DNA of 64,000 nt from Nitrospira sp. (lineage in GTDB: Bacteria > Nitrospirota > Nitrospiria > Nitrospirales > Nitrospiraceae): positions 62,001-126,000 of the forward strand of contig JACOEH010000001.1 in NCBI GenBank assembly GCA_024998685.1, given 5' to 3'. Every line of letters begins with the position of its first letter. Within the stretch, counting starts at the first letter, position 1. The notes beneath the pieces are model-generated. The model did no database searches, was not told the origin of the DNA, and worked only from the letters and a program-made list of their open reading frames with translations. This document shows positions 1 through 29,205 of the stretch, in pieces. A program made the translations under genes and the position numbers.

Positions 1-3000
1 GGAGCAGGATTTTATACTGTCCCAACATCCGTTCAGCGGTCTGAGGCTCGAAAAGATCTGTATTGAACGTCAAGTATGCTCTTCGGGAGAACTCCGTCTC
101 GATCGTCAAGCTCAAGTCGAATTGCGCGGCTTGCGTCTCCACCTCGAACGGCACCCAACTCAACCCTTGGACGTTGATTTCCCCGATGGGAGCATTGGGT
201 ACATTGAAGAGAACCTGCACGAGCGGGGCGGAGCTATGGTCGCGAGCGGAGTGCATCGTCTCGACCAACTTATCGAACGGGAAGTCCTGATTGGCATACG
301 CCTCTAATGCCGTTGTACGCACCCGTGTCATCAACTCGTTGAATGTCGGATCGCCGGAGAGATCGGTACGCAAGATGAGTGTATTGACGAACGAACCGAT
401 GATCGATTCGACCGCGGATTGAGTTCGGTTGGCTATCGGGGAACCTACGGCCACATCGGGTTGCCCGGAATAGCGACTCAAGAGAATCTGGAAACAAGCC
501 AATAGGGTCATGAACACCGTCGCATTGTGTTCGGCGCTGAATTCCTTCAGTCGCTCGATCAACGACGTGGGCAACTCCAGCATGCAATGTGAACCGTTGA
601 ATGTTTGCACGACGGGCCGCGGGTAATCGGTCGGCAACGAAAGCTTGGAAAGTCCGTCCAGCTTCTTCTGCCAATAATCCGATTGTGTGCCGAGCCGGTC
701 GTCGGTCAAGCAACGACGCTGCCACACCGCATAGTCGGCATACTGAAGAAGGATCGGCTTGGCGGTAGGAATTTCTCTTCGGCAAAACGCATTGTAGAAG
801 AATGCAAACTCATGCCCGATGATCCCGAACGACCACTGGTCTCCGATGATATGATGCATCGTGAGCACCAGCACATGGTCCTCGGGCTCGATCTCAATCA
901 AAAGGAATCGGGCCAGAGGACCTTTCTCGAGATCGAACGGCTGATTCGCTTCCTGCTCCACGAGCCGAGCCGCATGCTGTCGACGTTGGTCGAGGGGCAG
1001 TGCCTGAAGATCCATTTCGACCCAATGAGGAGAGCGAAAGGGATGGACCATTTGGACGGGCCCCTCACCCCTCATCATGAACGTCGTTCTAAATGCCTCA
1101 TGTCGGCTACAGATGGCATCGATCGTACTCCGGAGAGCCGCTTTGTCGAGCCGTCCCATCTGCCGCGAAGCGAACGGCATGTTATACGCCGTGCTGTGAG
1201 GAGCCAGCCGATACATCAGCCACATGCGTTGCTGAGAATAAGAAAGGGGAAGCGGCTGATCTCTGGGCACCGGAACGATCGGTGGCATTACGAAAGTGTT
1301 GTGCTCCCTCTGTCGCAACCGCGTCACTTCCTCGGCCAACGCCGCGATCGTCGGTCGCTCAAAAAGCGCCTGGAGCGAGACATCGACTTCAAACAGCTCG
1401 CGTATCCGGGAGACGAGCTGAGTCGCGACCAGGGAGTGACCGCCATGCTCGAAGAAGTGGTCGTGGATGCCTGCCTCGGGGACTTGAAGCACGGATTTCC
1501 AGAGTTCAGCCAAGGATTCTTCGACCAGATTTCTCGGAGCAATCCTGGTTGCCGCCAGACCGGCTGCTTGGTTCGGAACGGGAAGAGCGTGTCGACTCAC
1601 TTTTCCGGCGGCATTGAGCGGCATCGTTTCAAGCCACACAATGACGGAGGGCACCATGTAGTGCGGTAATCGCGCGGCAAGATGACTGCGAATCTGATCG
1701 ACCCTTTTCCTCAGCGACGACTCGCCGGCGACATAACCCACCAATCGATGCTGGTCCGGTTTATCCTGCCGAAGCAGCACCGCCGCTTGATGCACGCCCG
1801 GGAAGTTACTCAACACATACTCGATTTCTCCCAGCTCGATCCGATAACCGCGCAGCTTAACTTGTTGATCTACCCGGCCGAGAAACTCGACATTGCCGTC
1901 GGTGCGATGGCGAGCCAGGTCACCGGTCCGATAGAGCCTGGAGCCGACTACGTAGGGATTCGCAACAAATCGCTCTTGGGTCAGCTGCGGCCGGTTGACG
2001 TAGCCGCGGGCCAGACACTCTCCCGCGATATAGAGTTCTCCCGGTACGCCGATAGGCGTCGGCTGCAGATTTGCATCCAGCACATAGAGCTGCATGTGGT
2101 CGATGGGTTTGCCGATCGGGACTCGGGCTCCTGCTTCCTCACGAGTCGTTTGGTACACGCTGCACCAGACCGAGGCTTCAGTCGGTCCATATTCGTTGTA
2201 CAGCACGGCATGAGGCAGGAGCTGATAATGTCGTCGCACGAGTTCGAGGGGCAAACTCTCTCCGGCAGTGACGATGACACGGAGCGATTCCAGTTGAGCA
2301 CCCACCGCCTCGCCAAGCACGGCATGGTACAAAGAAGGGACCCACACGACATGCGAGATGCGATGATGCTCAATGAGGACAGCCAGCTCCGTGGGGTCGC
2401 GGTGGGCCGCCTCTGATGGAATGACCAGTTCTCCACCATGCAGCAATGTCCAAAATATGCCCGTCACGGACCCGTCAAAAGCCAGGGAAAAAGTCAGCAA
2501 AAATCGGGAGACCGGTTCCGGATAGTACTGAAGTCTGGCATGAAGAGAGGTCACCAGACTGCGATGTGTCACGGCCACACCTTTTGGCCGCCCCGTCGAG
2601 CCCGACGTGTAAATGATATAGGCGAGCTGATCCGGGGAAACAGGAAGTGCTAGGTTCTCCTCCTCTTTCTCCTCCCCGCCCACAGCCGATGCAGACAAGG
2701 CCTCGACGTCACAGATTTGTCCGCCGTAACTCTGTAAATGGTTACGGAGATGCGCCTGTGTGACGACGATGGAAACGTGGGCGTCCTCCAGCATGAGTTG
2801 AAGGCGGTGACCAGGAAAGGACGGGTCCAGGGGAACATAACCACCACCGGCTTTCAGAATGCCCAAGAGGCCCACCAAGGCATCGATCGAACGCTCGACA
2901 CAGAGACCCACCGGCATATCTGCGCCGACCCCTAATTTCCGTAGCGCCCGAGCGACTCGATTCGCTCGTCGATTCAGCTCTCGGTAGCTGATGGATTGCT

Positions 3001-6000
3001 CTCCACATGTCACAGCGGATGCTTGGGGAGTCCGCTCGACCTGTGACTCGATGAGCGCATGGATTCCGGAGGCCGAGTGAGGCGGCTCGGTCCACGTCAA
3101 CTGAATGTGTCGTCTCTCTTCGGAAGTCAGCAATGAAAGTCGGTCAAGACGCGCCTCAGGTTTCTTGAGAAATTCCTCGAGAAGGATCTCAAGCTGTCCC
3201 AACATGCGGTCGATCGTCGAGTCGTCGAAGATCGTGGAATCATGGAGAAACGCCAAGTCCAAGCCGGCCGCCTTGTTGATCACCATCAAGACGAGGTCGA
3301 ACTCCGATGCCGTCGGCTCCCAGGGAAGATGAGCGACTTCAAGATCCTTGACGATGAACGCGGACAACGGGTCGTCTTCACACACTATCATCACGTTAAA
3401 CAGCGGGGACAGCTGACGTGCTCGCTGTAACGACAGCGACTCGATGACCTCTTCAAACGGCAGTTCCTGATGGTCATAGGCGTCCACCACCACCCGACGT
3501 ACCTGCTTCAACAATTCTTGCCCTGTCATCCCAGCCGACAGTTCGGACCGCAACGCCACCGTATTGACGCAATATCCCATCACGTCTTCGAGTTCTCTCC
3601 GGCGTCTGCCGGCCACGATCGATCCAATGACGGCATCCGATTCTTGTGTGTAGCGATGCAGCCATATCGCAAAGACTGCGTACAGCACCATGAACGGTGT
3701 GACGCTCTGGCGCTGACAGAAAAGATCGAGGCGGGCGGAAAGTTCCGGTGAAACCGATCGTGACCGCGCGCCTCCCTCGAACGTGCGCACCCGTGGCCGT
3801 TGACGATCGACCGGTAGCTCAGCGGGAGGGTGGATACCGTTCAACTGCCGAATCCAGTAGGCTCGATGGATCTCACGAAGGCCTTGATCCAGCCTGGTTC
3901 TCTGCCAATCGGCATAGTCCGCATACTGAACAGTCAACGAAGGGAGTCCAGCCTCTTGAGCGTCACCACCGGCTTCCCAAAGAAGGGCCAATTCCTTCCA
4001 GAAGATACGAAGAGACCACCCATCCGCGACGAGACGGTGGAATGTGAGCGACAGGACATACACGTCCTGTCCAAGCGCCAGGAGAGTCACTCTAAATAGC
4101 GGCCCCTCTCGTAAGTCGAATGGCCGGTTCCTTTCCGATCGTAGGAATTGCGGCACCTGAATGTCTCGCTCCGCGGGGTTCAGTGCTTGGAAATCTTCAC
4201 ATCTGATTGCGATGATCGCCTCAGGGGACACTTCTGCGAATCCGTCGCCTCGCTCCGATCCGAAACGAGTTCGAAGAATCTCGTGACGACGGGTGATTTC
4301 CCGCACCGACCGCTCCAACACCTCGGGGTTGACCGGCCCGCGTAGACGCACATCCATGGAAATATGGTTGATCGCGCTCCCCGGATGAACTTGCTCCAAG
4401 AACCACAGTCGCTGCTGCGAGGGGCTGAGAGAAATTTTGCCTTCCCTCGAGGATGCCGAGGGAAGCGGAACAAGTTGACTCCGTGTCTCGTCGGAGCTAT
4501 TTGCGTCCCGGTGCCGGTCATCCGGACTCGTGCTCGGTTCACCGATTCGAGAAGCCAATGCGGACAATGTCGGACATTCGAACAGCACGCTGAGCGGGAG
4601 CTCGACGTGGAAGACATCGAGGACGCGCGCAACGACCTGTGCCGCGAGGAGCGAATTGCCTCCGAGTGCGAAGAAATTCGCATGGCGATGCGGAGGATGT
4701 CCACCAAACACCTCTTGCCAGATATCCGCGAGTCGTTTCTCGATGGGGGTTTGCGGGATCTCGCTCGGCACCCCGTCGGCTTCAGCCTCCTGCGCCTGGT
4801 CCAGCGTGCTCGCGACGACGATAGCGAGTCGGCCGGACACAAAGGCGGCTTTGCAGGCGCCCCGCTGAATTTTTCCGCTGGAAGTTCTGGGGATCGTGCC
4901 GGACTTGATCAGCACCACCGTATGGATTTCGAGTTCATATTCGTCAGCCACCGCGCGACGGATACAGCTGACTATTTCCGACAGATCGGATTCAGGCACC
5001 TGCTTCTCAATCTCGTGGACCAGCGCCACCAGCTCTCCGGTCTTGCCCTCAACGGAGAAGGCCGCGCCATATCCTCGTCGCAAGCCGGGGTGCGCTTGTT
5101 GGGCCGACCACTCCAAATCATGGGGATAATAGTTCCGCCCACGCACGATGATCAAATCTTTGAGGCGTCCGGTCAGGAACAGTTCTCCGCGGCGGAGGAA
5201 TCCCAGGTCCCCGGTCCGCAAATAGGGGCCTTCTCCGGACCCGGCGAGAGTGGCTTTGAATGTGGCGTCGGTTTCTTCCGGTTTGCCCCAGTATCCAGAG
5301 CCGACTCCGGGTCCGGCCAGCCACACTTCTCCCACAACATCCGGCGGACACTCGCCATGAGTCGTAGGATTCACGATCCGTACACGAGTCTCTTCGAGAG
5401 GTTCGCCGCATCCGACCAATGTCCGCGTTCCCGTTTTCGATGCCGGAGATTCTTTGACGATCGAGTCAGCCAACGCGTCCGGCTCTACCGGCAAGACGCT
5501 CGGTTCCGTTCCGGCCCGCTTCATCGTCGCCAATAGCGTGGCTTCCGCAAGTCCATATCCCGGGGCAAACGCCGCTCGCCGAAAGCCGTGTGGACCAAAG
5601 GTATCGATAAACTGCTCGACGGTGTCCGGATGGATGGGTTCGGCGCCGCAACTGGCGACCATCCAGGTGCTCAAGTCAACCTGCCACTCCTTCTGCTGCG
5701 GCACAGCCCTGAGACAAGCCTCATAGGAGAAATTCGGTCCCCCGCTGTGGGTAATCGCGAATCGAGACACCGCTTCGAGCCATCGTAATGGCCGCCGGAG
5801 AAAGGTAATGGGCGACATCAAATAAGCGGGAATACCGGAATAGAACGGGGTGATGATTCCGTGGAGTAACCCATAGTCATGGAAATACGGCAACCAGCAG
5901 AGCGATCGGCTGCGGCTCGACACTTCTCCTGCCAGACTCAAGGCCTTACAGTGAGCGAGGACGTTTCCATGGCTGATCATGACGCCGCGAGGAACGGCCG

Positions 6001-6535
6001 TCGATCCTGAGGTATATTGCAAGTAGGCAAGGGCGGTGGGGTGAGGCCGTGATAACTCAACCGACTCGACTGAATTGTAGGGTTGATCCGTCGCCAACCA
6101 CTTGATCGGACTCACCTCGTTCGGGAGAGAACACTCCGAAGACAGAGCTGCGATACTTGCGGTCGTGAGCACCAGCGATACCTGAGCATCCTCGATAATG
6201 CTGCGCAGTCTGGGCAGCCCCTGCTTTCGCCTGATTGGATCGGGAGCCGGAGCGGGAACCGGCACGAGACCGGCACAGACACATGCCCAAAAGGCGCATG
6301 CGACATCGAGTCCTTGCGGATAGAGCAAAAGGACGTTGGTTCCTGGTGGGACTTCGCGTGCGAGATGGCCGGCAATCGAGCGCACGCTGGGTTCAAGCTG
6401 GCCATAGGTCAATTGACTGTCAAGTTCGAGGTTGTCGCGAACAAAAGCATAGGCAAGCTCATTCGGCTGTTGGCGGCATCGAAGTTCGAAGAGATCGGCG
6501 AGGTTGTCGATAGCCCGAGGAGGAAGTTTAGACAT
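1..6535 (-). CDS. Lipopeptide-type nonribosomal peptide synthetase, FAAL-PCP-C-A-PCP-C (3' end outside window)
   Basis: Open without a stop to the window edge (about 2178 residues seen). Domain order: fatty acyl-AMP ligase about 1-585 (AMP motif YTSGSTAVPRG at 174-184; C-terminal GRLKDLIIVRGRNYYP); carrier with GGNSL, Ser628; condensation domain about 700-1130 whose active-site motif reads HRLVADG (His833-Arg834) instead of HHxxxDG; adenylation domain about 1155-1640 (YIIYTSGSTGRPKG, NEYGPTE); carrier GGHSL, Ser1701; second condensation domain with HHIIGDQ at His1894-His1895. FAAL-led lines load a fatty acid, so the product is probably a lipopeptide. Specificity residues read by hand by alignment to PheA are D-G-T-W-V-A-E-V-W, which I cannot assign. 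The start ATG has no clear Shine-Dalgarno site; a GTG 14 codons upstream is possible. Confidence 0.93.
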   Translation of the reverse strand, partial: MSKLPPRAIDNLADLFELRCRQQPNELAYAFVRDNLELDSQLTYGQLEPSVRSIAGHLAREVPPGTNVLLLYPQGLDVACAFWACVCAGLVPVPAPAPDPIRRKQGLPRLRSIIEDAQVSLVLTTASIAALSSECSLPNEVSPIKWLATDQPYNSVESVELSRPHPTALAYLQYTSGSTAVPRGVMISHGNVLAHCKALSLAGEVSSRSRSLCWLPYFHDYGLLHGIITPFYSGIPAYLMSPITFLRRPLRWLEAVSRFAITHSGGPNFSYEACLRAVPQQKEWQVDLSTWMVASCGAEPIHPDTVEQFIDTFGPHGFRRAAFAPGYGLAEATLLATMKRAGTEPSVLPVEPDALADSIVKESPASKTGTRTLVGCGEPLEETRVRIVNPTTHGECPPDVVGEVWLAGPGVGSGYWGKPEETDATFKATLAGSGEGPYLRTGDLGFLRRGELFLTGRLKDLIIVRGRNYYPHDLEWSAQQAHPGLRRGYGAAFSVEGKTGELVALVHEIEKQVPESDLSEIVSCIRRAVADEYELEIHTVVLIKSGTIPRTSSGKIQRGACKAAFVSGRLAIVVASTLDQAQEAEADGVPSEIPQTPIEKRLADIWQEVFGGHPPHRHANFFALGGNSLLAAQVVARVLDVFHVELPLSVLFECPTLSALASRIGEPSTSPDDRHRDANSSDETRSQLVPLPSASSREGKISLSPSQQRLWFLEQVHPGSAINHISMDVRLRGPVNPEVLERSVREITRRHEILRTRFGSERGDGFAEVSPEAIIAIRCEDFQALNPAERDIQVPQFLRSERNRPFDLREGPLFRVTLLALGQDVYVLSLTFHRLVADGWSLRIFWKELALLWEAGGDAQEAGLPSLTVQYADYADWQRTRLDQGLREIHRAYWIRQLNGIHPPAELPVDRQRPRVRTFEGGARSRSVSPELSARLDLFCQRQSVTPFMVLYAVFAIWLHRYTQESDAVIGSIVAGRRRRELEDVMGYCVNTVALRSELSAGMTGQELLKQVRRVVVDAYDHQELPFEEVIESLSLQRARQLSPLFNVMIVCEDDPLSAFIVKDLEVAHLPWEPTASEFDLVLMVINKAAGLDLAFLHDSTIFDDSTIDRMLGQLEILLEEFLKKPEARLDRLSLLTSEERRHIQLTWTEPPHSASGIHALIESQVERTPQASAVTCGEQSISYRELNRRANRVARALRKLGVGADMPVGLCVERSIDALVGLLGILKAGGGYVPLDPSFPGHRLQLMLEDAHVSIVVTQAHLRNHLQSYGGQICDVEALSASAVGGEEKEEENLALPVSPDQLAYIIYTSGSTGRPKGVAVTHRSLVTSLHARLQYYPEPVSRFLLTFSLAFDGSVTGIFWTLLHGGELVIPSEAAHRDPTELAVLIEHHRISHVVWVPSLYHAVLGEAVGAQLESLRVIVTAGESLPLELVRRHYQLLPHAVLYNEYGPTEASVWCSVYQTTREEAGARVPIGKPIDHMQLYVLDANLQPTPIGVPGELYIAGECLARGYVNRPQLTQERFVANPYVVGSRLYRTGDLARHRTDGNVEFLGRVDQQVKLRGYRIELGEIEYVLSNFPGVHQAAVLLRQDKPDQHRLVGYVAGESSLRKRVDQIRSHLAARLPHYMVPSVIVWLETMPLNAAGKVSRHALPVPNQAAGLAATRIAPRNLVEESLAELWKSVLQVPEAGIHDHFFEHGGHSLVATQLVSRIRELFEVDVSLQALFERPTIAALAEEVTRLRQREHNTFVMPPIVPVPRDQPLPLSYSQQRMWLMYRLAPHSTAYNMPFASRQMGRLDKAALRSTIDAICSRHEAFRTTFMMRGEGPVQMVHPFRSPHWVEMDLQALPLDQRRQHAARLVEQEANQPFDLEKGPLARFLLIEIEPEDHVLVLTMHHIIGDQWSFGIIGHEFAFFYNAFCRREIPTAKPILLQYADYAVWQRRCLTDDRLGTQSDYWQKKLDGLSKLSLPTDYPRPVVQTFNGSHCMLELPTSLIERLKEFSAEHNATVFMTLLACFQILLSRYSGQPDVAVGSPIANRTQSAVESIIGSFVNTLILRTDLSGDPTFNELMTRVRTTALEAYANQDFPFDKLVETMHSARDHSSAPLVQVLFNVPNAPIGEINVQGLSWVPFEVETQAAQFDLSLTIETEFSRRAYLTFNTDLFEPQTAERMLGQYKILL

Positions 6536-6984
6536 GGAGGCGAGACATCCGGATCTTCTATCCTGAAAAAATCCGTTCACTCCTATCGACTATCCGTTCA
6601 CCGATGACTAGAGTAGTGCGCTTGATAACAAATTCAAAGAATTTCTCGGTTTCCAACCGAACAAGAATTCCTCCCGACACTCCATGCGCCGTCGAACCAG
6701 ATCTTCCTTTATATAAGATCCGTCGTCGTGTTTGCGGCCGGTGTAAGCGATAAAGATACTAACCACTTAACCCTAATTCAAGTGAACCAAGGGTAAGATC
6801 TGTAGCATTCCGCGTCATAGGAGAAACGAGCTCTGAGGATTTTTTCGCCAAATCACCCTTTTGCTCCGCGCACGCAATTTGAGTGAGCTATGTAAGCCAT
6901 TGATATGCAATGAACAAATCATATCGTCGCTGGAATGAATCATGGCATACTGATCGCACGGGTTCGGTTATCAAAGGGAGAAAG
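6536..6984. other. Divergent intergenic region
   Basis: This stretch separates the leftward synthetase from the rightward cytochrome island, so it should hold promoters for both directions. It is more AT-rich than its flanks. I see no gene, no convincing -35/-10 pair and no clear operator in it. Confidence 0.4.
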
Positions 6985-7374
6985 ATGTCTATCACTGGAT
7001 CAAGGCTGGTGCTGTGCGCAGTGTTAGCCGGTTTGTCGGGACTGGGGTTCAGCAACAGCGGAGTAAAAGATCTCACGACGTTTCCAAAGGGAGCCGATCC
7101 GGTCAGTGGGCGAGAAATCTATGTGAATACCTGCATTCGGTGTCATGGAATCGACGGCAAAGGTGCGCTTGGAATCAAACTTGTTCCGTCTCCGGCCGAC
7201 CTCACCTCACCCGTGGTTCAAGATCGACTCGACGGGACGTTATTTCGGCGCATTCATGAAGGCAAACCGAATACCGCTATGGGCGCATGGAAACACAGTC
7301 TCTCTGATGAAGAGATTTGGGATGTCTTGGCTTATGTGCGAACACTCGGGGTTGAACGAGGCGAGCAACCATAG
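6985..7374 (+). CDS. Small monoheme c-type cytochrome
   Basis: 129 residues. A hydrophobic N-terminal signal segment precedes one haem c motif, CIRCH, followed by GIDGKG and a distal KPNTAMGAWKHSLS loop whose Met is the likely sixth ligand. The protein ends in the class I cytochrome helix LSDEEIWDVLAYVRTL. An in-frame upstream start exists, but ATG 6985 is preceded by AAAGGGAGAAAG at good spacing and gives a proper signal peptide. First gene of the sulfur/cytochrome island. It is similar to the cytochromes at 10921 and 13767. The partner is unknown; a periplasmic electron shuttle is inferred. Confidence 0.85.
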   Translation: MSITGSRLVLCAVLAGLSGLGFSNSGVKDLTTFPKGADPVSGREIYVNTCIRCHGIDGKGALGIKLVPSPADLTSPVVQDRLDGTLFRRIHEGKPNTAMGAWKHSLSDEEIWDVLAYVRTLGVERGEQP

Positions 7375-7440
7375 TGAGTCCAATGGACAGGAGATGTCTC
7401 CTATGCGTGTGTGATGTATAAGATCAATGAGGTCCGATCT

Positions 7441-8295
7441 ATGAGTCGACCGGTCATTGCAGGTGTCGTACTGGGGAGCGCCCTTTTGATGACGATCAGC
7501 TGTGTGCCGCCTCCACGGGTGAAGGGGAGCGACGAGGCGGTTGCTCGTGCGACTGCGGGGTCCACAGTCGACGCCTTGTTTGCCCCGCCATCGCCTGAAA
7601 CGATTCCCGGTGATCTGAGAGGCGAGCAGATCCGACTGGGCTACAAGATGATTGTGGACACACAGGAATATGGAAAACGGTATGTCGGGAACGCGCTCAA
7701 CTGCGCCAATTGCCATTTGGACGGGGGGCTCAATCCGAATGCCGCATCATTTGTCGGTATCAGCACACTCTATCCACAATATCGTGAACGAGCCGGCCGA
7801 CAGATGACTCTGGCCGATCGGATCAACGAGTGTTTTGAGCGCAGTATGAACGGGAAACCTCTGCCGTCCGACAGTGTCAAGCTTACGGCTATTGTCGCGT
7901 ACATCGAGTGGTTGTCGGAAAATATGCCGCCCGGCAGTACGGTTCCGTGGCGAGGAATCCCGGGCCTGACCTCGACCCATCAGACTGATCCTCTCAACGG
8001 GAAAACGGTTTTTGAGAAAAAGTGTGTCTTTTGCCACGGCTCCGACGGGCAAGGGACGATGGCGGGGCCGCCGGTGTGGGGGCCGCGTTCGTACAGTATC
8101 GGCGCAGAAATGGCGCGTGTCGGCGTGGCCGCCGCATTTATCAAGGCCAACATGCCGCGAGGCTGGGGGTGGACGGTGACGGACGATGAAGCCATCGATG
8201 TCGCAACCTATATCAATGCGCAGCCTCGACCGGACTTTTCCGACAAGATTCATGATTGGCCGAATGGAAACAAGCCGGCCGATACACCCTATTGA
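7441..8295 (+). CDS. Diheme cytochrome c lipoprotein, thiosulfate dehydrogenase (TsdA)-like
   Basis: 284 residues. The lipoprotein signal ends LLMTISC. Two haem motifs, CANCH (in NALNCANCHLDGG) and CVFCH, lie in two cytochrome domains. The text around INECFERSMNGKPLP and the C-terminal PPVWGPRSY, AAFIKANMPRG and DVATYINAQPRPDF matches what I know of TsdA, which oxidises thiosulfate to tetrathionate. TsdA normally has a Cys as distal ligand of haem 1, about 18 residues after the first CxxCH. No Cys lies there, so thiosulfate activity is uncertain. ATG 7441 has GAGG nine bases upstream. It is followed closely by OsmC and sorAB. Confidence 0.75.
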   Translation: MSRPVIAGVVLGSALLMTISCVPPPRVKGSDEAVARATAGSTVDALFAPPSPETIPGDLRGEQIRLGYKMIVDTQEYGKRYVGNALNCANCHLDGGLNPNAASFVGISTLYPQYRERAGRQMTLADRINECFERSMNGKPLPSDSVKLTAIVAYIEWLSENMPPGSTVPWRGIPGLTSTHQTDPLNGKTVFEKKCVFCHGSDGQGTMAGPPVWGPRSYSIGAEMARVGVAAAFIKANMPRGWGWTVTDDEAIDVATYINAQPRPDFSDKIHDWPNGNKPADTPY

Positions 8296-8343
8296 GTGGG
8301 ACGCCGGCCATTTGTAACCGTAATGAGCGAGGTTAGGTGCGGT

Positions 8344-8769
8344 ATGAAGTTGACGGCGGTCTATCATGGAGGAACGCGTTACGATATTGTGAGCGGCCGG
8401 CATCGAATCATCACCGACCAAGCGGTGGAGGACGGAGGGCAGGACGCCGGAATGGGTCCGGTTGAACTGTTCGTCGGATCCGTCGCCAGTTGTGTCGCAT
8501 ATTTCGTAGGGCAATTCTGCGGGCGGCACGGTATTCCTCGGGACAGCTTGAGCGTCGATGCGGAATGGGTGATGGCCGAAGGTCCTCATCGAGTCGGTCG
8601 CATCGACATCGGCATCCACCTTCCTCACCGAATCACCACTGAGATGAAAGAACGGCTGTTAAGAGTGGCCCGTGGATGCACCGTTCATCAGTCGTTGACG
8701 GTTGTGCCGACGGTGGCGATTACGCTCAATCCACATAGCCATGCAGGAAATCAATCCTCCGAAAAATAG
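8344..8769 (+). CDS. OsmC/Ohr-family protein
   Basis: 141 residues. The OsmC fold is recognisable: an N-terminal beta segment, then GPVELFVGSVASCVAYFVGQFC, and a second conserved Cys in ARGCTVHQSL. Family members reduce organic hydroperoxides with this Cys pair, and some act with sulfur-transfer proteins. It lies between the TsdA-like cytochrome and sorA, which suggests a redox role in sulfur metabolism rather than general peroxide defence (inference). The start at 8344 follows GAGGTTAGG; an ATG at 8323 is an alternative. Confidence 0.8.
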   Translation: MKLTAVYHGGTRYDIVSGRHRIITDQAVEDGGQDAGMGPVELFVGSVASCVAYFVGQFCGRHGIPRDSLSVDAEWVMAEGPHRVGRIDIGIHLPHRITTEMKERLLRVARGCTVHQSLTVVPTVAITLNPHSHAGNQSSEK

Positions 8770-8777
8770 ATTAGGCG

Positions 8778-9956
8778 ATGGACATCTCGCGGCGTTCTCT
8801 ATTCAAAACACTTCTCCAGGGTATGGGAGCCGGCCTGCTGTTCAGCCGGCGGCTCCCTCCGGCGCTGGCGATCGGAGAAGAGCCGGGCCGCAATGAATCG
8901 GGACCTTTAATTACGCGCGTCACCAGGCCACTCGATGCGGAGACTCCCGTCCGTGAATTCACGTCCTTCCTGACACCTAACCACCGGTTTTTCGTGCGAA
9001 GCCATTTCGGGCCGCCGGCGCCGGAGTTGATTTCCGAGGCGGGCTGGAAGTTGCGGGTCAACGGCTTGGTTGAGCGATCGCAAGAATTCACGTTGAAGGA
9101 TCTGAAGCAATTGGAGCCGGTGACGATCACAGCGGTCGTTCAATGCAGCGGCAATGGCCGTACATTTCACCGACCCAAGGTCCCCGGTGTGCAATGGGAG
9201 AGGGGCGCGGTCGGCAACGCTGAATGGACCGGAGTACGACTGTGCGACGTGCTGGCGAGGGCGGCCGTAAAGGAGGGAGCGCAACACGTGCAGCTGCAAG
9301 GCGCCGATCGGCCTGTGATGGCCTCCGTGCCGCTCTTCACCAGGAGCATTCCATTGGCCAAGGCACTGCATCCGGACACGATTCTGGCCTATGAGATGAA
9401 CGGACGGCCGCTGCCTGTGCTGCATGGGGCTCCTCTACGGGCCATCCTACCTGGCTGGATGGCCGATTCATGCACGAAATGGCTGACGGAAATTACGGTC
9501 CAGCCGGAAACGGCGAAGGGCTACTATATGGAGACGGCTTATCGCATGCCGGTGAAGCCGGTAGAGGCCGGTACCATATCGACTGGTCCATCTACTCCGG
9601 TGGAAGCGATGGTCGTGAAATCGCTGATCGCCGCGCCGCACGAGGATGAAACGGTCAAGGTCGGACCGGTAACGGTTCAGGGCGTGTCCTGGAGCGGAGA
9701 AGCGACGGTGGTGCAAGTCGAGGTGTCGGTCGATGGTGGAAAAACGTGGGAGCCGGCGCGGTTGCTCGGGGAAGACCTCCCCTACGCCTGGCGGCAATGG
9801 CAATGGCTCTGGAAAGCTCGAACGGCAGGGCCGACGACGATTCTCTGCCGCGCGATCGACTCGCGCGGAGACACGCAACCGGCGGCGACGCCATGGAATC
9901 CCGGCGGCTTCCTCTGGAACGGCTGGGATCGCGTATCGGTGACGGTGGTTGCATGA
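8778..9956 (+). CDS. sorA: Sulfite dehydrogenase molybdopterin subunit SorA
   Basis: 392 residues of the sulfite oxidase family. The N-terminus SRRSLFKTLLQGMGAGLL is a twin-arginine signal, so the folded Mo enzyme is exported. The Mo-coordinating Cys lies in VVQCSGNGRTFH. The substrate-pocket and dimerisation parts follow (NGRPLPVLHGAPLRAILPGW; VSWSGEATVVQVEVSVDGGKTW; FLWNGWDRV). Members oxidise sulfite to sulfate and pass electrons to a cytochrome c; the following gene overlaps by four bases (ATGA) and encodes a haem c protein, as in SorAB. Methionine sulfoxide reductase MsrP is related but lacks this C-terminal domain. Confidence 0.88.
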   Translation: MDISRRSLFKTLLQGMGAGLLFSRRLPPALAIGEEPGRNESGPLITRVTRPLDAETPVREFTSFLTPNHRFFVRSHFGPPAPELISEAGWKLRVNGLVERSQEFTLKDLKQLEPVTITAVVQCSGNGRTFHRPKVPGVQWERGAVGNAEWTGVRLCDVLARAAVKEGAQHVQLQGADRPVMASVPLFTRSIPLAKALHPDTILAYEMNGRPLPVLHGAPLRAILPGWMADSCTKWLTEITVQPETAKGYYMETAYRMPVKPVEAGTISTGPSTPVEAMVVKSLIAAPHEDETVKVGPVTVQGVSWSGEATVVQVEVSVDGGKTWEPARLLGEDLPYAWRQWQWLWKARTAGPTTILCRAIDSRGDTQPAATPWNPGGFLWNGWDRVSVTVVA

Positions 9957-10372
9957 TGGACGGAAAATGCCCGCTCGTCGCGCTATTGGCAATCTGTCTT
10001 TCGGGAGTGGCGGTTGTAACGGCGGCACAGGAAAGGGACCTGACCGATGTAAACGCGGCCCTGGCCCGCCGCGGAGAAGGCCTCCTCGTCACCCGCTGTG
10101 CCGTCTGTCACAGCCAGGATCTCGTCTCGCAGCAGCGACTGCCGAGGGACCGATGGTTGGCCACGATCGACAAGATGAAACAGTGGGGCGCAGGAATTTC
10201 CGAAGAGGAAGCGGACCTGCTCGTGCGGTATCTGTCGGCACGCTATCACCCCGGCCTGCCGGATCAACCGGTGCCGGCCGACAGCGAACGGTCGCAAGCT
10301 GAGCCATTGAAGACCGAGCCGGAGGCTGAAGGTCCGGTAATGGGCATCGCGAACAGAGGAGCGTGTCTATAA
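9953..10372 (+). CDS. sorB: Sulfite dehydrogenase cytochrome c subunit SorB-like
   Basis: 139 residues, starting ATGATG inside the sorA stop, so probably translationally coupled. A signal peptide is followed by a single haem motif CAVCH and the short helix EEADLLVRYLSARYHP. The Pro/Glu-rich tail beyond residue 100 is longer than the minimal SorB domain and ends abruptly. In the next frame a second cytochrome-like segment with CLGCH continues from this point, so the gene may originally have encoded a longer diheme protein that is now split by a frameshift. Confidence 0.78.
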   Translation: MMDGKCPLVALLAICLSGVAVVTAAQERDLTDVNAALARRGEGLLVTRCAVCHSQDLVSQQRLPRDRWLATIDKMKQWGAGISEEEADLLVRYLSARYHPGLPDQPVPADSERSQAEPLKTEPEAEGPVMGIANRGACL

Positions 10373-10577
10373 GGATCCGCGGGTCCAGGTCGGGGCCTTC
10401 GATGTCTCGAAGGTCGGTAAATTCGACGTCACCCTTGGCGGTATGGCTTACAAGGCGCACGCCTGTCTCGGATGTCACACGATCGAAGAGAACGGCAAGC
10501 TCATCGGTGGATCACAGAACAACGGAGGTTTGAGACATGGCGACATTCATTATTTCAGGCAGTCGAGGGACCGATGA
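10341..10577 (+). pseudogene. Cytochrome c fragment out of frame behind sorB
   Basis: Open from 10341 after a TAA, with no good start codon or ribosome site. It encodes EERVYKDPRVQVGAFDVSK, then KFDVTLGGMAYKAHACLGCH and TIEENGKLIGG. CLGCH is a normal haem c attachment site. After LIGG the frame runs into the dsrE-like gene and loses sense. It is either the displaced C-terminal part of SorB (a one-base frameshift near 10350-10368) or the remnant of a separate cytochrome truncated by a deletion. Confidence 0.5.
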
Positions 10578-10896
10578 CCCCACAATGGCAACGTTGCCCT
10601 TCATGGCCGCCAAGACGGCCAAAGAGCAGGGGCATGATGTCGTGCTGTGGTTGTGGAACGAAGCAGTCATGCTGGGAAGAAAAGGCGTGGCGGATCATGT
10701 GACGGGTGTGAATTTGACCCCGGTGAAAGAACTACTTGCCGCTATCCAGGCGGCTAATGTGCCGATCTGGGTCTGCGGCGCCTGTGCCGTGGCGCGACAA
10801 ATCGGCGGAGGAGATCTCGTGGCCGGCGCGTCCATCAAAGGCATGCCGGATTACATCACAGCCGTCGCCGAACGTGATCGGAACGTGATGTTCTGA
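10537..10896 (+). CDS. DsrE/DsrF-family sulfur-relay-like protein
   Basis: 119 residues with the DsrE-like fold: MATFIISGSRGTDDPTMATLP at the N-terminus, GHDVVLWLWNEAVMLGR in the middle, and VPIWVCGACAVARQIGGGDL carrying a Cys pair at the position where DsrE/TusD proteins hold the persulfide. ATG is preceded by CGGAGG. Such proteins bind and transfer sulfane sulfur in the cytoplasm. Together with OsmC, SorAB and the TsdA-like cytochrome this argues for sulfur-compound handling in this island. No Dsr, Hdr or TusA gene is present nearby. Confidence 0.78.
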   Translation: MATFIISGSRGTDDPTMATLPFMAAKTAKEQGHDVVLWLWNEAVMLGRKGVADHVTGVNLTPVKELLAAIQAANVPIWVCGACAVARQIGGGDLVAGASIKGMPDYITAVAERDRNVMF

Positions 10897-10920
10897 TTTC
10901 TGGAATAGATGAGGTACAGG

Positions 10921-11460
10921 ATGATGAAGAAGTATTTGTTTCCATTGCTCGTCATGGTTATGGCCACCTCCAATCCCGTCGAAGCAGCCGAACGACATAT
11001 GATGCAGCCACGAGTGCCGGCCGATAAGCTGGCCGACGCTCGCGCGCTCAGCAGTCCCCTGTCGAATTCTCCTCAGGTCATTGAGCAGGGCAAAGCGATT
11101 TACCACGGCAAGGGCACCTGCTTTACTTGTCATGGAGCGGAGGGAGACGGCAAAGGGACGGCGGCGGCCAAGCTGAATCCTTCACCGCGGAATTTCCAAC
11201 ATCACGGCTTTTGGCGACATCGCACGGAAGGCGAGCTTTTCTGGGTCATCAAATACGGTTCGCCCGGTACTGCGATGACTGGATTCGGTCAAGTTCTGTC
11301 GGATGAAGAGATTTGGGCTCTCATTCGGTATGAGCGGATGTTTGCCGGGAGACATGGACCAGGCATGAAGGGGCATAGAGAAGGCATGGGGCCGGGAAGC
11401 GGTATGGATGGGATGCAAGGTATGGGACATCGAGGCCGAAGAGGTGGAGTGCAGGAATAA
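10921..11460 (+). CDS. Monoheme cytochrome c with Gly/Met/His-rich tail
   Basis: 179 residues. Signal peptide, then KGTCFTCHGAEGDGKG (one haem), a distal SPGTAMTGFGQVLS loop and the helix LSDEEIWALIRYERMF. The last 40 residues are a low-complexity tail rich in Gly, Met and His (GMKGHREGMGPGSGMDGMQG), which could bind metal ions. ATG 10921, with GAGG upstream, gives the best signal peptide; ATG 10924 is equally possible. Paralogue of the cytochromes at 6985 and 13767. Confidence 0.82.
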   Translation: MMKKYLFPLLVMVMATSNPVEAAERHMMQPRVPADKLADARALSSPLSNSPQVIEQGKAIYHGKGTCFTCHGAEGDGKGTAAAKLNPSPRNFQHHGFWRHRTEGELFWVIKYGSPGTAMTGFGQVLSDEEIWALIRYERMFAGRHGPGMKGHREGMGPGSGMDGMQGMGHRGRRGGVQE

Positions 11461-11809
11461 AAGAATGTTTACGTGTCATCCTGACACAGTTATCGACGTT
11501 CAACGTACAGCCGCGATCGCATCACTTCCTCCATCGATTGTCGCGTTTTTCCCCACTCAGCCATAGTGCCTTGGGTATTCCTGCATCACATCGACATGGC
11601 TCACAAGTGTCGAGCCGTCCGAAGCGCTTTTTTGCTATCCGTCCGTCGTTCACGTTAAAAGATAGTAACGGCATTAAAATCGCACTTAACTTTTCCGAAT
11701 CCAATCTTGAGAAGAATAGCTCCGAGTCACTACAATTAAGAGCATAAGAGCGAGGATTTTGGAGAGAAGCGAATTCAGTTATATCATCCATCAACCAGGA
11801 GGAGTTTTG
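11461..11809. other. Intergenic region upstream of CBS gene
   Basis: 349 bases with no gene that I can support. It probably carries the promoter of the CBS-domain gene. The right half is AT-rich and ends in a strong AGGAGG ribosome site directly before 11810. Confidence 0.4.
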
Positions 11810-12253
11810 ATGACTACGTTAGCTGAGCCAGGGGTTCCTGCGGGAGGGTTCAAGACGGTGGGGCAGATACGCGCAACGAACGCGGTTGTTTTTCGTCGTG
11901 ATCAGAATGCAATGGGAATTGCCGTGGAACTTCTGGCCAGTCATACCCCCGGCGCACCGGTCGTCGACGAACGAGGTACCTTCATCGGCTTCATCAGCGA
12001 GTTCGACATTCTTCGGGCACTGGAAGCAAAGAAGGATCTCAACCGTTTAACAGCCCAAGATGTGATGGCGAAGGACCACATCGCCGTGACTGAGGAGACG
12101 AGTTTCGATGAAGCTGTGAGGATCATGGAGGAGAAACGACTCTTAAACTTGCCGGTGAAGAAGAACGGAAAGGTGGCATATTCAGTCACTCGCCACGATC
12201 TTTTGAGAGCCTGGATCGGGCTTGGCGTGTCCATCGAAGATGCGGCCGGCTGA
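11810..12253 (+). CDS. Tandem CBS-domain protein
   Basis: 147 residues forming one Bateman module: CBS1 about 20-75 (NAMGIAVELLASHTPGAPVVDE then GTFIGFISEFDILRAL) and CBS2 about 85-140 (VMAKDHIAVTEETSFDEAVRIM, LLNLPVKKNGKVAYSVTRHDLL). No enzyme or transporter domain is attached, so this is a free-standing adenosyl-ligand sensor. Start chosen at 11810 because AGGAGGAGTTTTG precedes it. Target protein unknown. Confidence 0.85.
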   Translation: MTTLAEPGVPAGGFKTVGQIRATNAVVFRRDQNAMGIAVELLASHTPGAPVVDERGTFIGFISEFDILRALEAKKDLNRLTAQDVMAKDHIAVTEETSFDEAVRIMEEKRLLNLPVKKNGKVAYSVTRHDLLRAWIGLGVSIEDAAG

Positions 12254-12360
12254 GGACGCACGCTGCTTCCACCGTTTCATGAGGGAAGGGCGATCGCCGT
12301 TCTTGACCATCCATCTTGCAGAGTTGCCACGCTGCATAGGCTCGGTCGAAGGGAGGGGGC

Positions 12361-12945
12361 ATGTCAACAAGGATGTGGTTTGTCGGAGGATTGAGCGTCG
12401 TGCTTTGCGTGCTTGGAAGTGGGGGAACGGGTCACGCCGGAAAAGAATCAGCCGGCAGTGTCGCGTTGGAAACGGTCGTCGACTATATCCATGCGGTGCT
12501 TGAGGCAGACAGGACGTTTTACACGGTCCACGTCGTGGAGCGGATACAGAGGAAAGGCGTGATCAAATCGTCGGAGAAGTGGCGTTCAGAAAGTGCGCTC
12601 CCTCTTCCGGCGCAATTTTTTCAGGAGTCGTCGAGTTTGGCCGAGCTGACGGGAAGCAAAGTGCGCTATCGGTTGATCAGCCTCAACCCGATCAACAAGC
12701 AGAACGGCCCGCGAACCGAGTTTGAACAGAAGGCACTCGAAGCGGTCATGGCGCGACCCGAACAGCCGTACAAGGGCTTCGTCAAGGAAGAGGGTGGTAG
12801 ATATTTCCAAGCCGTCTATGCAGACCCTGCCGTTTCGCCCGGTTGCGTGACCTGTCATAACGCCGATCCCCGTAGCGCGAAGCGTGACTATAAGCTCAAG
12901 GATGTGCTGGGAGGAGTCCTGATTTCAATTCCGGCACCCGAATGA
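12361..12945 (+). CDS. DUF3365 (Tll0287-like) haem-binding periplasmic protein
   Basis: 194 residues. Signal peptide, then a Tll0287-like sensor domain: SLNPINKQNGPRTEFEQKAL and EGGRYFQAVYADPAVSPGCVTCHN, where CVTCH attaches a haem c near the C-terminus, followed by YKLKDVLGGVLISIP. This fold is often a haem-based sensor at the N-terminus of signalling proteins; here it stands alone. It may be a redox sensor or electron carrier of the periplasm. Role inferred from the family only. Confidence 0.78.
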   Translation: MSTRMWFVGGLSVVLCVLGSGGTGHAGKESAGSVALETVVDYIHAVLEADRTFYTVHVVERIQRKGVIKSSEKWRSESALPLPAQFFQESSSLAELTGSKVRYRLISLNPINKQNGPRTEFEQKALEAVMARPEQPYKGFVKEEGGRYFQAVYADPAVSPGCVTCHNADPRSAKRDYKLKDVLGGVLISIPAPE

Positions 12946-13024
12946 TGGGGGCTTGTCCTCGCAGCAACAGGTCCAAAGTACCGGGATACACGATCTCTGA
13001 TTATTGACTGCGAGAGGGGTGGCC

Positions 13025-13696
13025 ATGAGGAAGTTGAGCCAGTGGATTGTCGGATTAGGGGCGGCCGCGTGGATCCTAACGATAGCCGTGTTCCCGAGCT
13101 ATGCCGACGAGAGCCATGGGAAGATGGGACCTGGTAGACACGATGAGGATAAACAGGACGACCATAGTGGGCACTACCTGAAACATCTGTTGAAACATGC
13201 CAAAGAAATCGGACTGACTCAGGAGCAGGTCGGCAAGATCAAAACTCTACAGCTTGACTTCAAGCGGGCTGAGGCTCGATTGGAGGCCGATGCCAAAATC
13301 GCCAAACTCGAACTGCACGCGCTGTTGGATGATGAGCAGGCCGACCTCAATGCCATTCAGGCCAAAGTCGATCAGTTGAAAAAAGCGGAAGCGGCCTGTC
13401 TGTTTGCGGCGATTAAGAGTAAGCGTCACGCCATGGCGATGTTGACTCCCGACCAGCGGGAAAAGGAACATGCCCAGCATGAGCGAATGAAGGCTGGAGG
13501 GCAGCATGGAAGTGGAATGGGAGGGATGGGTCACGGTGGGATGATGGGCGGCATGGGAGGCGGCGGTGGACACCAATCCGGGATGGGCGGAATGGGCGGC
13601 ATGATGGGTGGTATGGGAGGAGGTGGACAGGAAGGGCATGACGGCGATGGCCATGGGAGTGGAGAATCCGGTGGAGGGCAGCAACACCAGCATTAG
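13025..13696 (+). CDS. Spy/CpxP/ZraP-like periplasmic protein with Met/Gly/His tail
   Basis: 223 residues. Signal peptide, His/Asp-rich linker (DEDKQDDHSGH), then a long helical region with the family signature GLTQEQVGKIKTLQLDFKRA and AMLTPDQREKEHAQH. The last 60 residues are almost only Gly, Met and His in repeats of GGMMGGMGGGGG type and end in QQHQH. The helical part resembles metal-responsive or chaperone proteins of the extracytoplasmic stress family; the tail would suit Cu(I) or Ni(II) binding. ATG 13025 follows GAGAGGGGTGG. Confidence 0.75.
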   Translation: MRKLSQWIVGLGAAAWILTIAVFPSYADESHGKMGPGRHDEDKQDDHSGHYLKHLLKHAKEIGLTQEQVGKIKTLQLDFKRAEARLEADAKIAKLELHALLDDEQADLNAIQAKVDQLKKAEAACLFAAIKSKRHAMAMLTPDQREKEHAQHERMKAGGQHGSGMGGMGHGGMMGGMGGGGGHQSGMGGMGGMMGGMGGGGQEGHDGDGHGSGESGGGQQHQH

Positions 13697-13766
13697 CCAT
13701 CGATCTCGACGTCCGTTCTCGATAGCACATTCGTCACCGTAGGGTAAAGTGTAATCGGAGGGTGGT

Positions 13767-14123
13767 ATGTACTTACGTATCGGGTTGAGCTGTGTCGCGA
13801 TTGTGCTGACCGGATCCGTGGCTTTGGCCCAACATTTCGGAAATCCGAAGAACGGAGAGACAATCTATCGACAACACTGTGTCGGCTGTCATGGAATTTC
13901 CGGTGATGGACTGGGACCTGATATTAAAGAATTGATCGTTCCTCCCGCGAACTTCCATGCGGCGAAGTCTCGAACAAAGACGGACATGGAACTGTATCTT
14001 GCGGTGAAACAGGGAGTCCTCTTCAGTCCGATGCACGGATGGGCGGATCGGCTGTCGAGTCAGGAAATGTGGGATGTTTTAAGCTATATCCGTATGTTGG
14101 CTCCGTTCAATCCTCTCGGCTAG
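13767..14123 (+). CDS. Small monoheme c-type cytochrome
   Basis: 118 residues: signal peptide ending ALAQHF, haem site CVGCHGISGDGLG, then QGVLFSPMHGWADRLSSQEM with the probable Met ligand and the closing helix MWDVLSYIRML. CGGAGGG precedes ATG. Close in plan to the cytochromes at 6985 and 10921. The region from QGVLFSP to the end is also recognisable in the short protein encoded at 22884-23156. Confidence 0.85.
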   Translation: MYLRIGLSCVAIVLTGSVALAQHFGNPKNGETIYRQHCVGCHGISGDGLGPDIKELIVPPANFHAAKSRTKTDMELYLAVKQGVLFSPMHGWADRLSSQEMWDVLSYIRMLAPFNPLG

Positions 14124-14328
14124 CTCCACTGCACACTGTCTATGCTATTCTGTCGTTTTCTGCGTCAGGGATATTGCGCAATGAGATCGTGATGCCGGAG
14201 GGGGGATAGCGTTCATATGAATCGTTTTAGTAAGCTGTCATCTCACGAGTATGTGAGACCGGCAGGAACATAGCTTCGGCAAGGATGCGATGTTGGTGTC
14301 GGACGATTTTACCCATGGAGGGTCCATT

Positions 14329-14631
14329 ATGACGTCTCATAACGATGACGATTCGGGGTTGGCACTTGCGCTTGCTTTTCTCGGCGGGGCAATGATGGGC
14401 ATTATGACGGGTTTTCTCCTTGCACCGAGGTCGGGCGAGGAAACGCGTCGTGAGCTCAAAGGCTACGCAAGAAGGACGGAAGAAGAGGTGCTGGAGAAGG
14501 CCAAGGAGGCGCGAGCCGCGCTTGATGAGCTGATCGGGCGTGGAAAACAGTTCGTCGAGGATCGTCGGGCCGATGTTGAAGCCGCTCTGCAAGCAGGCAA
14601 AGAAGCGATGAAAGAGAAAAGAGATCGATAG
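14329..14631 (+). CDS. YtxH-domain protein
   Basis: 100 residues. A glycine-rich hydrophobic segment, ALALAFLGGAMMGIMTGFLLAPRSGEETR, is the YtxH signature (membrane anchor followed by the APxSGxETR motif), and a charged coiled-coil-like helix follows to the end. YtxH proteins are general-stress-associated in Bacilli; the biochemical function is unknown. ATG 14329 is preceded by GGAGGG and gives the usual length. Confidence 0.8.
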   Translation: MTSHNDDDSGLALALAFLGGAMMGIMTGFLLAPRSGEETRRELKGYARRTEEEVLEKAKEARAALDELIGRGKQFVEDRRADVEAALQAGKEAMKEKRDR

Positions 14632-14704
14632 AAGTGTCCAAGGCGATGAGTGTGCGATAAGGAATCCGGTGGAGGTGCTTGTGTAGGTACGACGGAGGCA
14701 TGCG

Positions 14705-15184
14705 ATGAGTGAGCAGCAGACCGTGACGGCATTCTATGAAAAGGATCACGACCGGTTGGATGAGTTGTTCAAGACGTTTCAAACGTCGAAACGCTCAGAC
14801 TTTGTCAAGGCCAAGGAAGCTTTCAAGGAATTCAAAATCGGCCTCCAACGGCATATCGTGTGGGAAGAGGAGCTGCTTTTTCCGATGTGGGAAGAGAAAA
14901 CCGGTATGATCGAGGACGGGCCGACGCCCGTGATGCGATTTGAGCACGAGCAGATCAAGCAGCTGCTTGAAGCCATTCACCGGAAGGTGGAGGAGCAGAA
15001 TCTCGATACCGATCAGAGCGAGCAGGCGCTGTTCAATCTATTGAGCTCTCATAATCGGAAAGAAGAGCGGGCCCTCTATCCCGCAATCGATAATGTGACT
15101 CGTGCGGAGGAGCGCGAAAAAATCTTCAACAGCATGAACAGTATTCCCGCAGACCGGTACGATACCTGTTGCAGTCGGCACTGA
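14705..15184 (+). CDS. Hemerythrin-domain protein
   Basis: 159 residues, all-helical HHE cation-binding domain. Likely di-iron ligands: His in FYEKDHDRLDELF, His and Glu in LQRHIVWEEELLFP, His in RFEHEQIKQLL, and His and Glu in SSHNRKEERALYPAID. The protein ends in DTCCSRH. Members bind O2 or NO or act in iron and NO stress. It sits between YtxH and another cytochrome, consistent with a stress/redox set. Confidence 0.85.
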   Translation: MSEQQTVTAFYEKDHDRLDELFKTFQTSKRSDFVKAKEAFKEFKIGLQRHIVWEEELLFPMWEEKTGMIEDGPTPVMRFEHEQIKQLLEAIHRKVEEQNLDTDQSEQALFNLLSSHNRKEERALYPAIDNVTRAEEREKIFNSMNSIPADRYDTCCSRH

Positions 15185-15194
15185 TGGAGAGCGA

Positions 15195-15698
15195 ATGAAG
15201 GTCAAGACTGAGGTTGAACGAAGACCCGCAGTTCGTTTTCTTCTCCATAGCTCCAACCTATTACTGCCGGTCTCATTCAGCCTGCTCTTCATAAGCAACC
15301 TGGGAATGGAGGTGCGGTCTCCATCCGACTCTGCCTGGGCTGCGTCCTCGGCATCACAACCGAGCGGCAAATTAAACGGCAATGTGATGCGGGGACGAGA
15401 GATATTTAACGGGAAAGGCATTTGCTACTACTGTCACGGCATCGATGGGTATATCGGGAGAAGACCTCGGTTGGAAACCGACACTGCCGCGCTTATCGAC
15501 AAGCTGAATCCTCCGCCTTCCGACCTACGGAATCCAGAGGTCCTGCGCCTCAAAACCAATAAGGAACGCGCCCGCGCTATCAGAGAAGGCCATCCGGGAA
15601 CCGGTATGTTTCCAGACACCACCATGACCGACCAAGAACTCGCCGATACACTGCTCTACCTCGCGCTCATCAGAAAAGATCCTCACCCGGAGCAGTAA
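15195..15698 (+). CDS. c-type cytochrome, monoheme
   Basis: 167 residues. N-terminal signal anchor, then a haem site KGICYYCHGIDGY, a distal loop GHPGTGMFPDTTM with the candidate Met ligand, and a closing helix LADTLLYLALIRK. It follows the hemerythrin gene by ten bases after GATGGAGAGCGA and is probably in the same transcript. More divergent than the other small cytochromes of the island. Confidence 0.82.
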   Translation: MKVKTEVERRPAVRFLLHSSNLLLPVSFSLLFISNLGMEVRSPSDSAWAASSASQPSGKLNGNVMRGREIFNGKGICYYCHGIDGYIGRRPRLETDTAALIDKLNPPPSDLRNPEVLRLKTNKERARAIREGHPGTGMFPDTTMTDQELADTLLYLALIRKDPHPEQ

Positions 15699-26898: not shown

Positions 26899-27126
26899 AA
26901 CGCATCGCAAGTAACTGCTCCATCTACGCACTCGTGGGAACCGTTATCTTCCTCTTCCATCATCCTCATCCGGGCAAACCTGGGGGTCCCATAGTAGATG
27001 AGCGGTCGCGAGCGAGTGGTGGGACGCAGTCTTGATTCTCTCGCCTTGCAAGAGGGTGGAAGAGTCCTTACCATGGCGACGAGACCGACCACTCAGTTTG
27101 GCACAGAGCGAACTGGCATTTGTATC

Positions 27127-28275: not shown

Positions 28276-28277
28276 CC

Positions 28278-29132: not shown

Positions 29133-29142
29133 AACGAGGGAT

Positions 29143-29205
29143 GGTTTGTCTTGTGTGTCTGGTTTGTCTGGTTCAACCAAACAAACCAGAAAAACTAAAT
29201 AAACT
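29143..29205. repeat. Two-armed 9-nt-period repeat, copy B, between hydG and hydD
   Basis: Seven consecutive nonamers: GGTTTGTCT occurs twice, with TGTGTGTCT between; the centre is GGTTCAACC; then AAACAAACC, AGAAAAACT and AAATAAACT. The inner GGTTTGTCTGGTT pairs with AACCAAACAAACC. It is in the only sizeable gap of the hydrogenase structural genes, so it would be present in the operon mRNA. Confidence 0.8.

Follow-up and report, generated by a model that had tools for sequence, protein, structure and literature searches.

Sulfite dehydrogenases of the SorAB type, known from Starkeya novella and from lineage IV of the Nitrospirales, have been discussed, either alone or together with a group 3b hydrogenase, as a possible sulfur metabolism of nitrite oxidizers (PMC3578206, PMC7078480, PMC8115632, PMC12342949). 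Specifically, a sulfite dehydrogenase was reported for some clade A comammox organisms and three nitrite-oxidizing Nitrospira (PMC7078480), while a 2025 survey described sorAB as largely restricted to lineage IV (PMC12342949). The other relevant system is TsdA, a diheme cytochrome described in Allochromatium vinosum, Campylobacter jejuni and Marichromatium purpuratum (there as TsdBA), a gene for which has also been reported in Ca. Nitrotoga (PMC9239080). Here we have analysed a stretch of 64,000 nucleotides from a Nitrospira genome of 4.83 Mb (contig JACOEH010000001.1, positions 62,001 to 126,000; G000:C94:62001-126000 in our set, hereafter the window), in which genes akin to both systems stand in a run of seven co-directional genes on the forward strand (6985-11460): a cytochrome, a TsdA-type cytochrome, an OsmC protein, a SorA-like enzyme, a SorB-like cytochrome, a DsrE-like protein and another cytochrome. 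These are known enzymes in a well-conserved and apparently undescribed arrangement. We read this cassette as a periplasmic module that would exchange electrons with thiosulfate and tetrathionate, with sulfite oxidation as an option, and give this reading a probability of roughly one half.

A full copy of the cassette is made up of a cytochrome, TsdA, a transporter (in some copies), OsmC, the SorA-SorB pair (optional), a triheme cytochrome, a small cytochrome, DsrE, PPK2 (optional) and a last cytochrome. Nitrospira moscoviensis, for example, has the order TsdA, transporter, OsmC, SorA, SorB, triheme cytochrome, DsrE, PPK2 and cytochrome, and Ca. N. defluvii the same order minus the transporter; both copies are intact. 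The sequence-only reading of this DNA had made its proposal depend on the gene set being conserved elsewhere, and so it is. In a genus set of 47 genomes (the window genome included) 40 had TsdA and 35 had DsrE; the two genes were present together in 32, on the same contig in 30, and in 30/30 of these DsrE came after TsdA, with the same strand used and 552-4568 bases between them. Across the family, 123 of 175 Nitrospiraceae genomes carry TsdA. Since the same gene order recurs in many genomes, a chance cluster was rejected. Cassette-type SorA was detected in 13/47 of the genus genomes (split over two contigs in G030, truncated in G044), and the idea that SorAB is the heart of the cassette was also rejected, the pair being an optional part. 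The constant core is rather cytochrome c, TsdA, OsmC, the triheme and small cytochromes, DsrE and cytochrome c, and it is this TsdA-OsmC-DsrE core, more than SorAB, that is of interest here. Twenty further stretches were mapped, none of them with SorA; 18 were cassette stretches of the same genus and two came from a genome of another family (G074). OsmC was present in 16/18 of the former (missing in G039 and at a contig end in G044), and the triheme cytochrome was missing or truncated in G033, G010, G004, G005, G023 and G001.

A scan with a SorA alignment provided a second sample of 80 loci, 55 from a Nitrospira-type clade and 25 from other phyla; the named relatives that it yielded were Nitrospira and other Nitrospirota. 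The two samples apparently overlap (e.g. L060 with G003, L065 with G020), and their counts were kept separate and never summed. Neighbours were counted over loci with enough flanking sequence, those with a short flank being dropped gene by gene. Around the 55 Nitrospira-clade SorA genes we found SorB in 48/48, OsmC in 46/54, TsdA in 33/45, the triheme cytochrome in 35/43, DsrE in 30/39, PPK2 in 23/36 and a TsuA-like transporter in 7/45. The loci of other phyla had SorB in 12/22 and none of the remaining genes (TsdA 0/17, OsmC 0/20, transporter 0/17, triheme cytochrome 0/21, DsrE 0/18, PPK2 0/16). The hidden Markov models (HMMs) of Nitrospira OsmC and DsrE gave no match in these 25 loci; for that of TsdA there were seven hits, all of them weak (E between 7e-7 and 1e-3), in frames near the SorA and SorB genes. 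Two Nitrospira-type cassettes appear under other names, L070 (Pyrinomonadaceae metagenome-assembled genome, MAG, SH2) and L086 (uncultured Nitrosospira NOB2), probably due to binning or naming errors.

The TsdA-type gene (7441-8295) encodes a diheme cytochrome with two CxxCH motifs that is a probable lipoprotein (Cys21). It matched A. vinosum TsdA (4wq7) with a phmmer E of 4.1e-53 over residues 49-272 (224 residues), and both of its domains, PF21342 (TsdA/SoxA, 55.5 bits) and PF13442 (45.5 bits), scored over the cut-off of 27. Residue conservation, here and below, was counted over 82 loci searched, with 62 TsdA homologs. Cys131, which aligns with the haem 1 Cys ligand of TsdA, is kept in 62/62, and so is the haem 2 Met (Met238), preceded by an Asn (Asn237) in 60/62. 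The axial Cys at haem 1 is needed for the activity of TsdA, and the C. jejuni enzyme, which also has an Asn before the haem 2 Met, is adapted to tetrathionate reduction (PMC5146829). The M. purpuratum TsdBA (5lo9) likewise has Asn, not Lys, at this position; because Asn-Met is common to both enzymes, we have rejected the haem 2 residues as a guide to the direction of the Nitrospira enzyme. The protein shares with the described TsdAs its two hemes, the haem 1 Cys and the haem 2 Met, and differs from them in that its gene belongs to a cassette that also holds OsmC and DsrE. Just upstream, in the window and in relatives, is the gene for a single-heme class I c-type cytochrome (cytA, 6985-7374; one CxxCH, PF13442 49.9 bits). 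The last gene of the run, also a single-heme cytochrome (10909-11460), is kept downstream of DsrE in relatives, and reaches 118.9 bits on the NCBIfam cytochrome 579 model, under its cut-off of 280.

The window had previously been credited with five genes in one direction with short gaps (7441-10896), and all five proved to be real, four of them (all but SorB) with Pfam domains over cut-off (the Pfam scan covered ten window genes, 6985-14123). The run itself is longer, with a single-heme cytochrome at either end, and most of the gaps are indeed short: OsmC starts with an ATG at 8344 after the TsdA stop at 8295, SorA begins at 8778 after the end of OsmC at 8769, the SorB start (9953) overlaps the SorA end (9956) by 4 bases and the last cytochrome (10909) follows the end of DsrE at 10896. 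The 164 bases between SorB and DsrE, in turn, hold the remnant of another gene, as described below.

OsmC (8344-8769) belongs to the OsmC/Ohr family of thiol proteins (PF02566, 47.8 bits) and its fold matches OsmC/Ohr. Its frame is open from a GTG at 8296; the ATG at 8344 was preferred on the basis of the relatives. Three cysteines are conserved, Cys50 in 69/69 readable homologs and Cys59 and Cys112 in 70/70. No signal peptide was seen by eye, and the protein is probably cytoplasmic. The DsrE-like protein (10537-10896) scores over the cut-off for PF02635 (65.3 bits) and matches YchN (1jx7, E 8.4e-4), with a CxxC motif of which Cys80 is kept in 57/57 readable homologs and Cys83 in 56/57. Foldseek also returned YchN as best match for the structure model, which is weak support for a YchN-like fold only, given a pLDDT (predicted local distance difference test) of just 59. 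A DsrEFH relay with dsrAB differs from this situation: no second DsrE-family gene, and hence no DsrF or DsrH partner, was found among the ten genes scanned, and nothing in the genome reached the DsrA cut-off; sulfur carriage by this protein is putative. The gene of a TsuA/YeeE-like transporter is absent from the window copy and is located between TsdA and OsmC in L041 (7725-8474) and likewise in L059, L067, L077, L079, L143, L148, L149 and L152. It resembles the YeeE/TsuA thiosulfate uptake proteins by its Sulf_transp domain (PF04143, 61.7 bits, cut-off 27), and falls far short of the TsuA model (43.2 bits, cut-off 400). In the Verrucomicrobiales locus L129 (1441-3211), one of those dropped from the transporter count for a short flank, a Sulf_transp-like gene of 30% identity is found just upstream of SorA, an independent pairing.

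The SorA-like gene (8778-9956) codes for a molybdoenzyme of the sulfite oxidase family (PF00174, Oxidored_molyb, 190.6 bits, and Mo-co_dimer, 63.7 bits, both over cut-off) whose best PDB match is the S. novella SorA (2blf, E 1.2e-65). R74, H76, C123, R128 and Y255 align with R55, H57, C104, R109 and Y236 of the S. novella enzyme, which we take to be the Mo-ligating Cys and the Arg, His and Tyr of the substrate site; all five are kept. A signal of twin-arginine translocation (Tat) type, SRRSLFK, was recognized by eye. In the SorA tree the cassette enzymes form one clade with those of other Nitrospirota (100/99), apart from the SorAs of families f3 and f4. The window protein reaches 313.8 bits on the NCBIfam SorA equivalog, whose cut-off is 600 (L028, a SorA from family f3 of the order, has 595.4), and it is for this reason that we call it SorA-like rather than a SorA equivalog. 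Its low score and separate clade may also account for the discrepancy between PMC12342949 and PMC7078480 mentioned above. The partner (SorB-like, 9953-10372) has the heme motif CAVCH, so that a c-heme cytochrome does adjoin SorA, and remains under the cut-offs of Cytochrome_CBB3 (24.1 of 27) and of NCBIfam SorB (NF052246, 41.7 of 93); an intact relative's SorB, at 49.2 bits, is also under 93. Along these lines, the pair resembles SorAB by its best PDB match, its active-site residues and the overlapping cytochrome gene, and is set apart by the low SorA score, the separate clade and a SorB that is diheme in the relatives and monoheme in the window. As regards the history of the pair, the TsdA tree requires three switches between presence and absence of SorA, and the window is grouped there with genomes that have no SorA. 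Gain and loss are not separable on this tree; the insert position shared by the copies, after OsmC and ahead of the triheme gene, speaks for loss of SorAB rather than gain.

The shortening of SorB is part of a broader erosion of the window copy. Its SorB has 139 aa and one heme motif, against about 205 aa and two heme domains in the relatives; the retained domain 1 is the one that matches the SorB model, and the second heme domain is gone. When aligned with L059, homology stops within SorB at 10362 and resumes some 0.6 kb farther on, inside the triheme gene (10371-10518); a second jump, of about 1 kb, leads to a point shortly before DsrE. What is left of the triheme gene, of which relatives have a full version of about 336 aa, is a remnant of 148 bases flanked by two deletions, with a CLGCH motif (10464-10478) and a DNA identity of 79.7% to the L059 gene (triC) and of 92.6% to G044 (L157). 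PPK2 is missing as well. The nearest relatives are also broken: the SorA of G044 has an in-frame stop, followed by a fused triheme end at the contig edge, and the single-contig assembly of G023 lacks SorAB and shows a triheme gene shortened in frame. Since these copies are broken too, the cassette region seems to be repeatedly losing parts in the lineage of the window, although assembly error in a MAG could explain any one copy. All of this could be taken to mean that the window cassette is a decaying relic that has lost the function of SorAB and possibly that of the entire run. We find this doubtful, since SorA, TsdA, OsmC and DsrE are all open, the ratio of non-synonymous to synonymous substitution rates (dN/dS) against two relatives is 0.05-0.13, indicating purifying selection, and the SorB has retained precisely the heme domain that matches its model.

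The sequence-only reading had gone further and proposed that the cassette, together with a group 3b hydrogenase (possibly a sulfhydrogenase), oxidizes sulfane sulfur completely to sulfate. That the cassette is sulfur-related and conserved holds (the TsuA-like gene of some copies points the same way); the full route is unsupported because nothing in the cassette converts sulfane sulfur to sulfite, Hdr-type and persulfide dioxygenase genes lying outside of the search. Markers of the sHdr pathway are hdrC1B1AhypC2B2 with LbpA. In favour of such a route are the presence in one operon of a possible sulfane carrier, the DsrE-like protein, and a sulfite oxidase, the hydrogenase at a distance of 16 kb in the window and on the same strand in relatives, and the TusA-family genes detected in 15/15 genomes tested, because of which a cytoplasmic sulfur relay may still exist. 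SoxY, our indicator of SoxYZ, was found in 0/13 cassette-bearing genomes and in 3/4 control genomes of the same order. DsrA scored over cut-off in 0/23 Nitrospiraceae genomes, the window genome included (best E 1.1e-6); these belonged to a phylum sample in which 46/118 genomes did score over it. The statement that sox genes are lacking had referred to the window, only part of which was scanned for sox here; on another contig of this genome (G000:C58, L002) there is a gene for a SoxC-family sulfite dehydrogenase (TIGR04555, 505 bits, cut-off 420). A SoxC gene without SoxY accords with a published statement on Nitrospirales, according to which soxCD is prevalent there while other sox genes are overwhelmingly absent (PMC11033732).

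The hydrogenase genes are real. Four subunits of group 3b type (Fer4_22, NAD_binding_1, Oxidored_q6 and NiFeSe_Hases) are encoded at 26998-31404 on the forward strand, outside of the cassette and about 16 kb from it; the enzyme scores 290.8 bits on NF040828, under the cut-off of 700. Their link to the cassette is weak. Within the genus set, 30/47 genomes have the 3b hydrogenase, 5/13 of those with SorA and 25/34 of those without, an anti-association with a Fisher p of 0.04 uncorrected for relatedness. TsdA and the hydrogenase occur together in 27 genomes, on the same contig in 12 and on different contigs in 15; in 12/12 of the same-contig cases the hydrogenase follows TsdA, with both on one strand, 15.6-65.6 kb away. 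This is regional synteny, not an operon. With the sulfane-to-sulfite step missing from the cassette, no SoxY, no DsrA over cut-off and a hydrogenase that tends to avoid SorA, we hold it to be very improbable that cassette and hydrogenase together take sulfane sulfur as far as sulfate.

In the reading that we prefer, the electron-exchange module, TsdA would interconvert thiosulfate and tetrathionate in the periplasm and swap electrons with the small cytochromes that flank it, and through them with the respiratory chain. Where SorA is present, it would reach the periplasm through Tat, together with its molybdenum cofactor, and oxidize sulfite to sulfate, its electrons passing by way of SorB to the same cytochrome pool. 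OsmC and the DsrE-like protein would be cytoplasmic and handle thiols, persulfides or the sulfane sulfur brought in by thiosulfate, in some copies possibly through the TsuA-like transporter. What the sequences show directly is the identity of the genes, their conservation and order, the kept catalytic and ligand residues and the erosion; the substrates, the direction in which TsdA works, the path of the electrons, the compartments and the parts played by OsmC and DsrE are inferred. Several observations weigh against this reading. The SorA and SorB scores are low, as given above, the truncated window copy may be losing its function, and dN/dS values against the nearest relative (G044) are higher, 0.29 for SorA (first 132 codons), 0.27 for TsdA and 0.16 for OsmC. 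The parts of the cassette are not strictly interdependent, since most genomes of the genus keep the core but have no SorAB, and several have a truncated triheme cytochrome or none. No sulfur phenotype of Nitrospira was found in the literature consulted, and a paper on Nitrospinia notes that sulfite oxidation has no physiological evidence behind it (PMC10839748). Besides, the nearby genes for PPK2, CBS-domain, hemerythrin and metal-resistance-like proteins also suit a stress cluster.

These same neighbours lead to a protective interpretation, in which SorAB and OsmC (with DsrE) would clear sulfite, peroxide or reactive sulfur, TsdA would neutralise thiosulfate or tetrathionate of the habitat and the cytochromes would dump the electrons, with no net gain of energy. 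The OsmC/Ohr fold with its conserved cysteines and the dispensability of SorAB fit such a role, and detoxification has been suggested for reduced sulfur in Nitrospirales (PMC11033732). Several cytochromes dedicated to TsdA look more like a respiratory than a protective arrangement, however, and the TsuA-like gene that some copies have would serve uptake, the reverse of exclusion. We consider protection possible but rather unlikely.

As for the surroundings, the genes downstream of the cassette (11759-15698) code for CBS-domain, Tll0287-like heme, metal-resistance-like, cytochrome c, YtxH and hemerythrin proteins, and a CBS gene follows the cassette in several relatives too. Upstream and divergent from it, a non-ribosomal peptide synthetase gene with condensation and AMP-binding domains, two of each (5-6586, reverse strand), continues past the window edge; in G003 (L039) and G044 (L053), too, the cassette is preceded by a long gene from this family.

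The organism itself looks like a nitrite oxidizer: no gene for ammonia monooxygenase (AMO) was found in its genome by a search that was positive in G020 and G023, and comammox was rejected on these grounds. No description of TsdA, or of the TsdA-OsmC-DsrE core, in Nitrospira was found in our literature search, which did not extend to supplements and subscription papers. Nitrospira are among the most widespread nitrifiers, and sulfite oxidation has been proposed for some of them, while the more constant TsdA has seemingly been overlooked. We tentatively suggest, as something short of an even chance, that most Nitrospiraceae carry an undescribed module of TsdA, OsmC, DsrE and dedicated cytochromes with which nitrite and ammonia oxidizers could use thiosulfate as a source of electrons, or turn to tetrathionate respiration when starved of oxygen, sulfite oxidation being a lineage-specific addition. 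The module can be tested in the cultured N. moscoviensis and N. defluvii. If true, nitrification would be tied to the thiosulfate/tetrathionate cycle, and these bacteria would have a mode of survival at oxic-anoxic boundaries.

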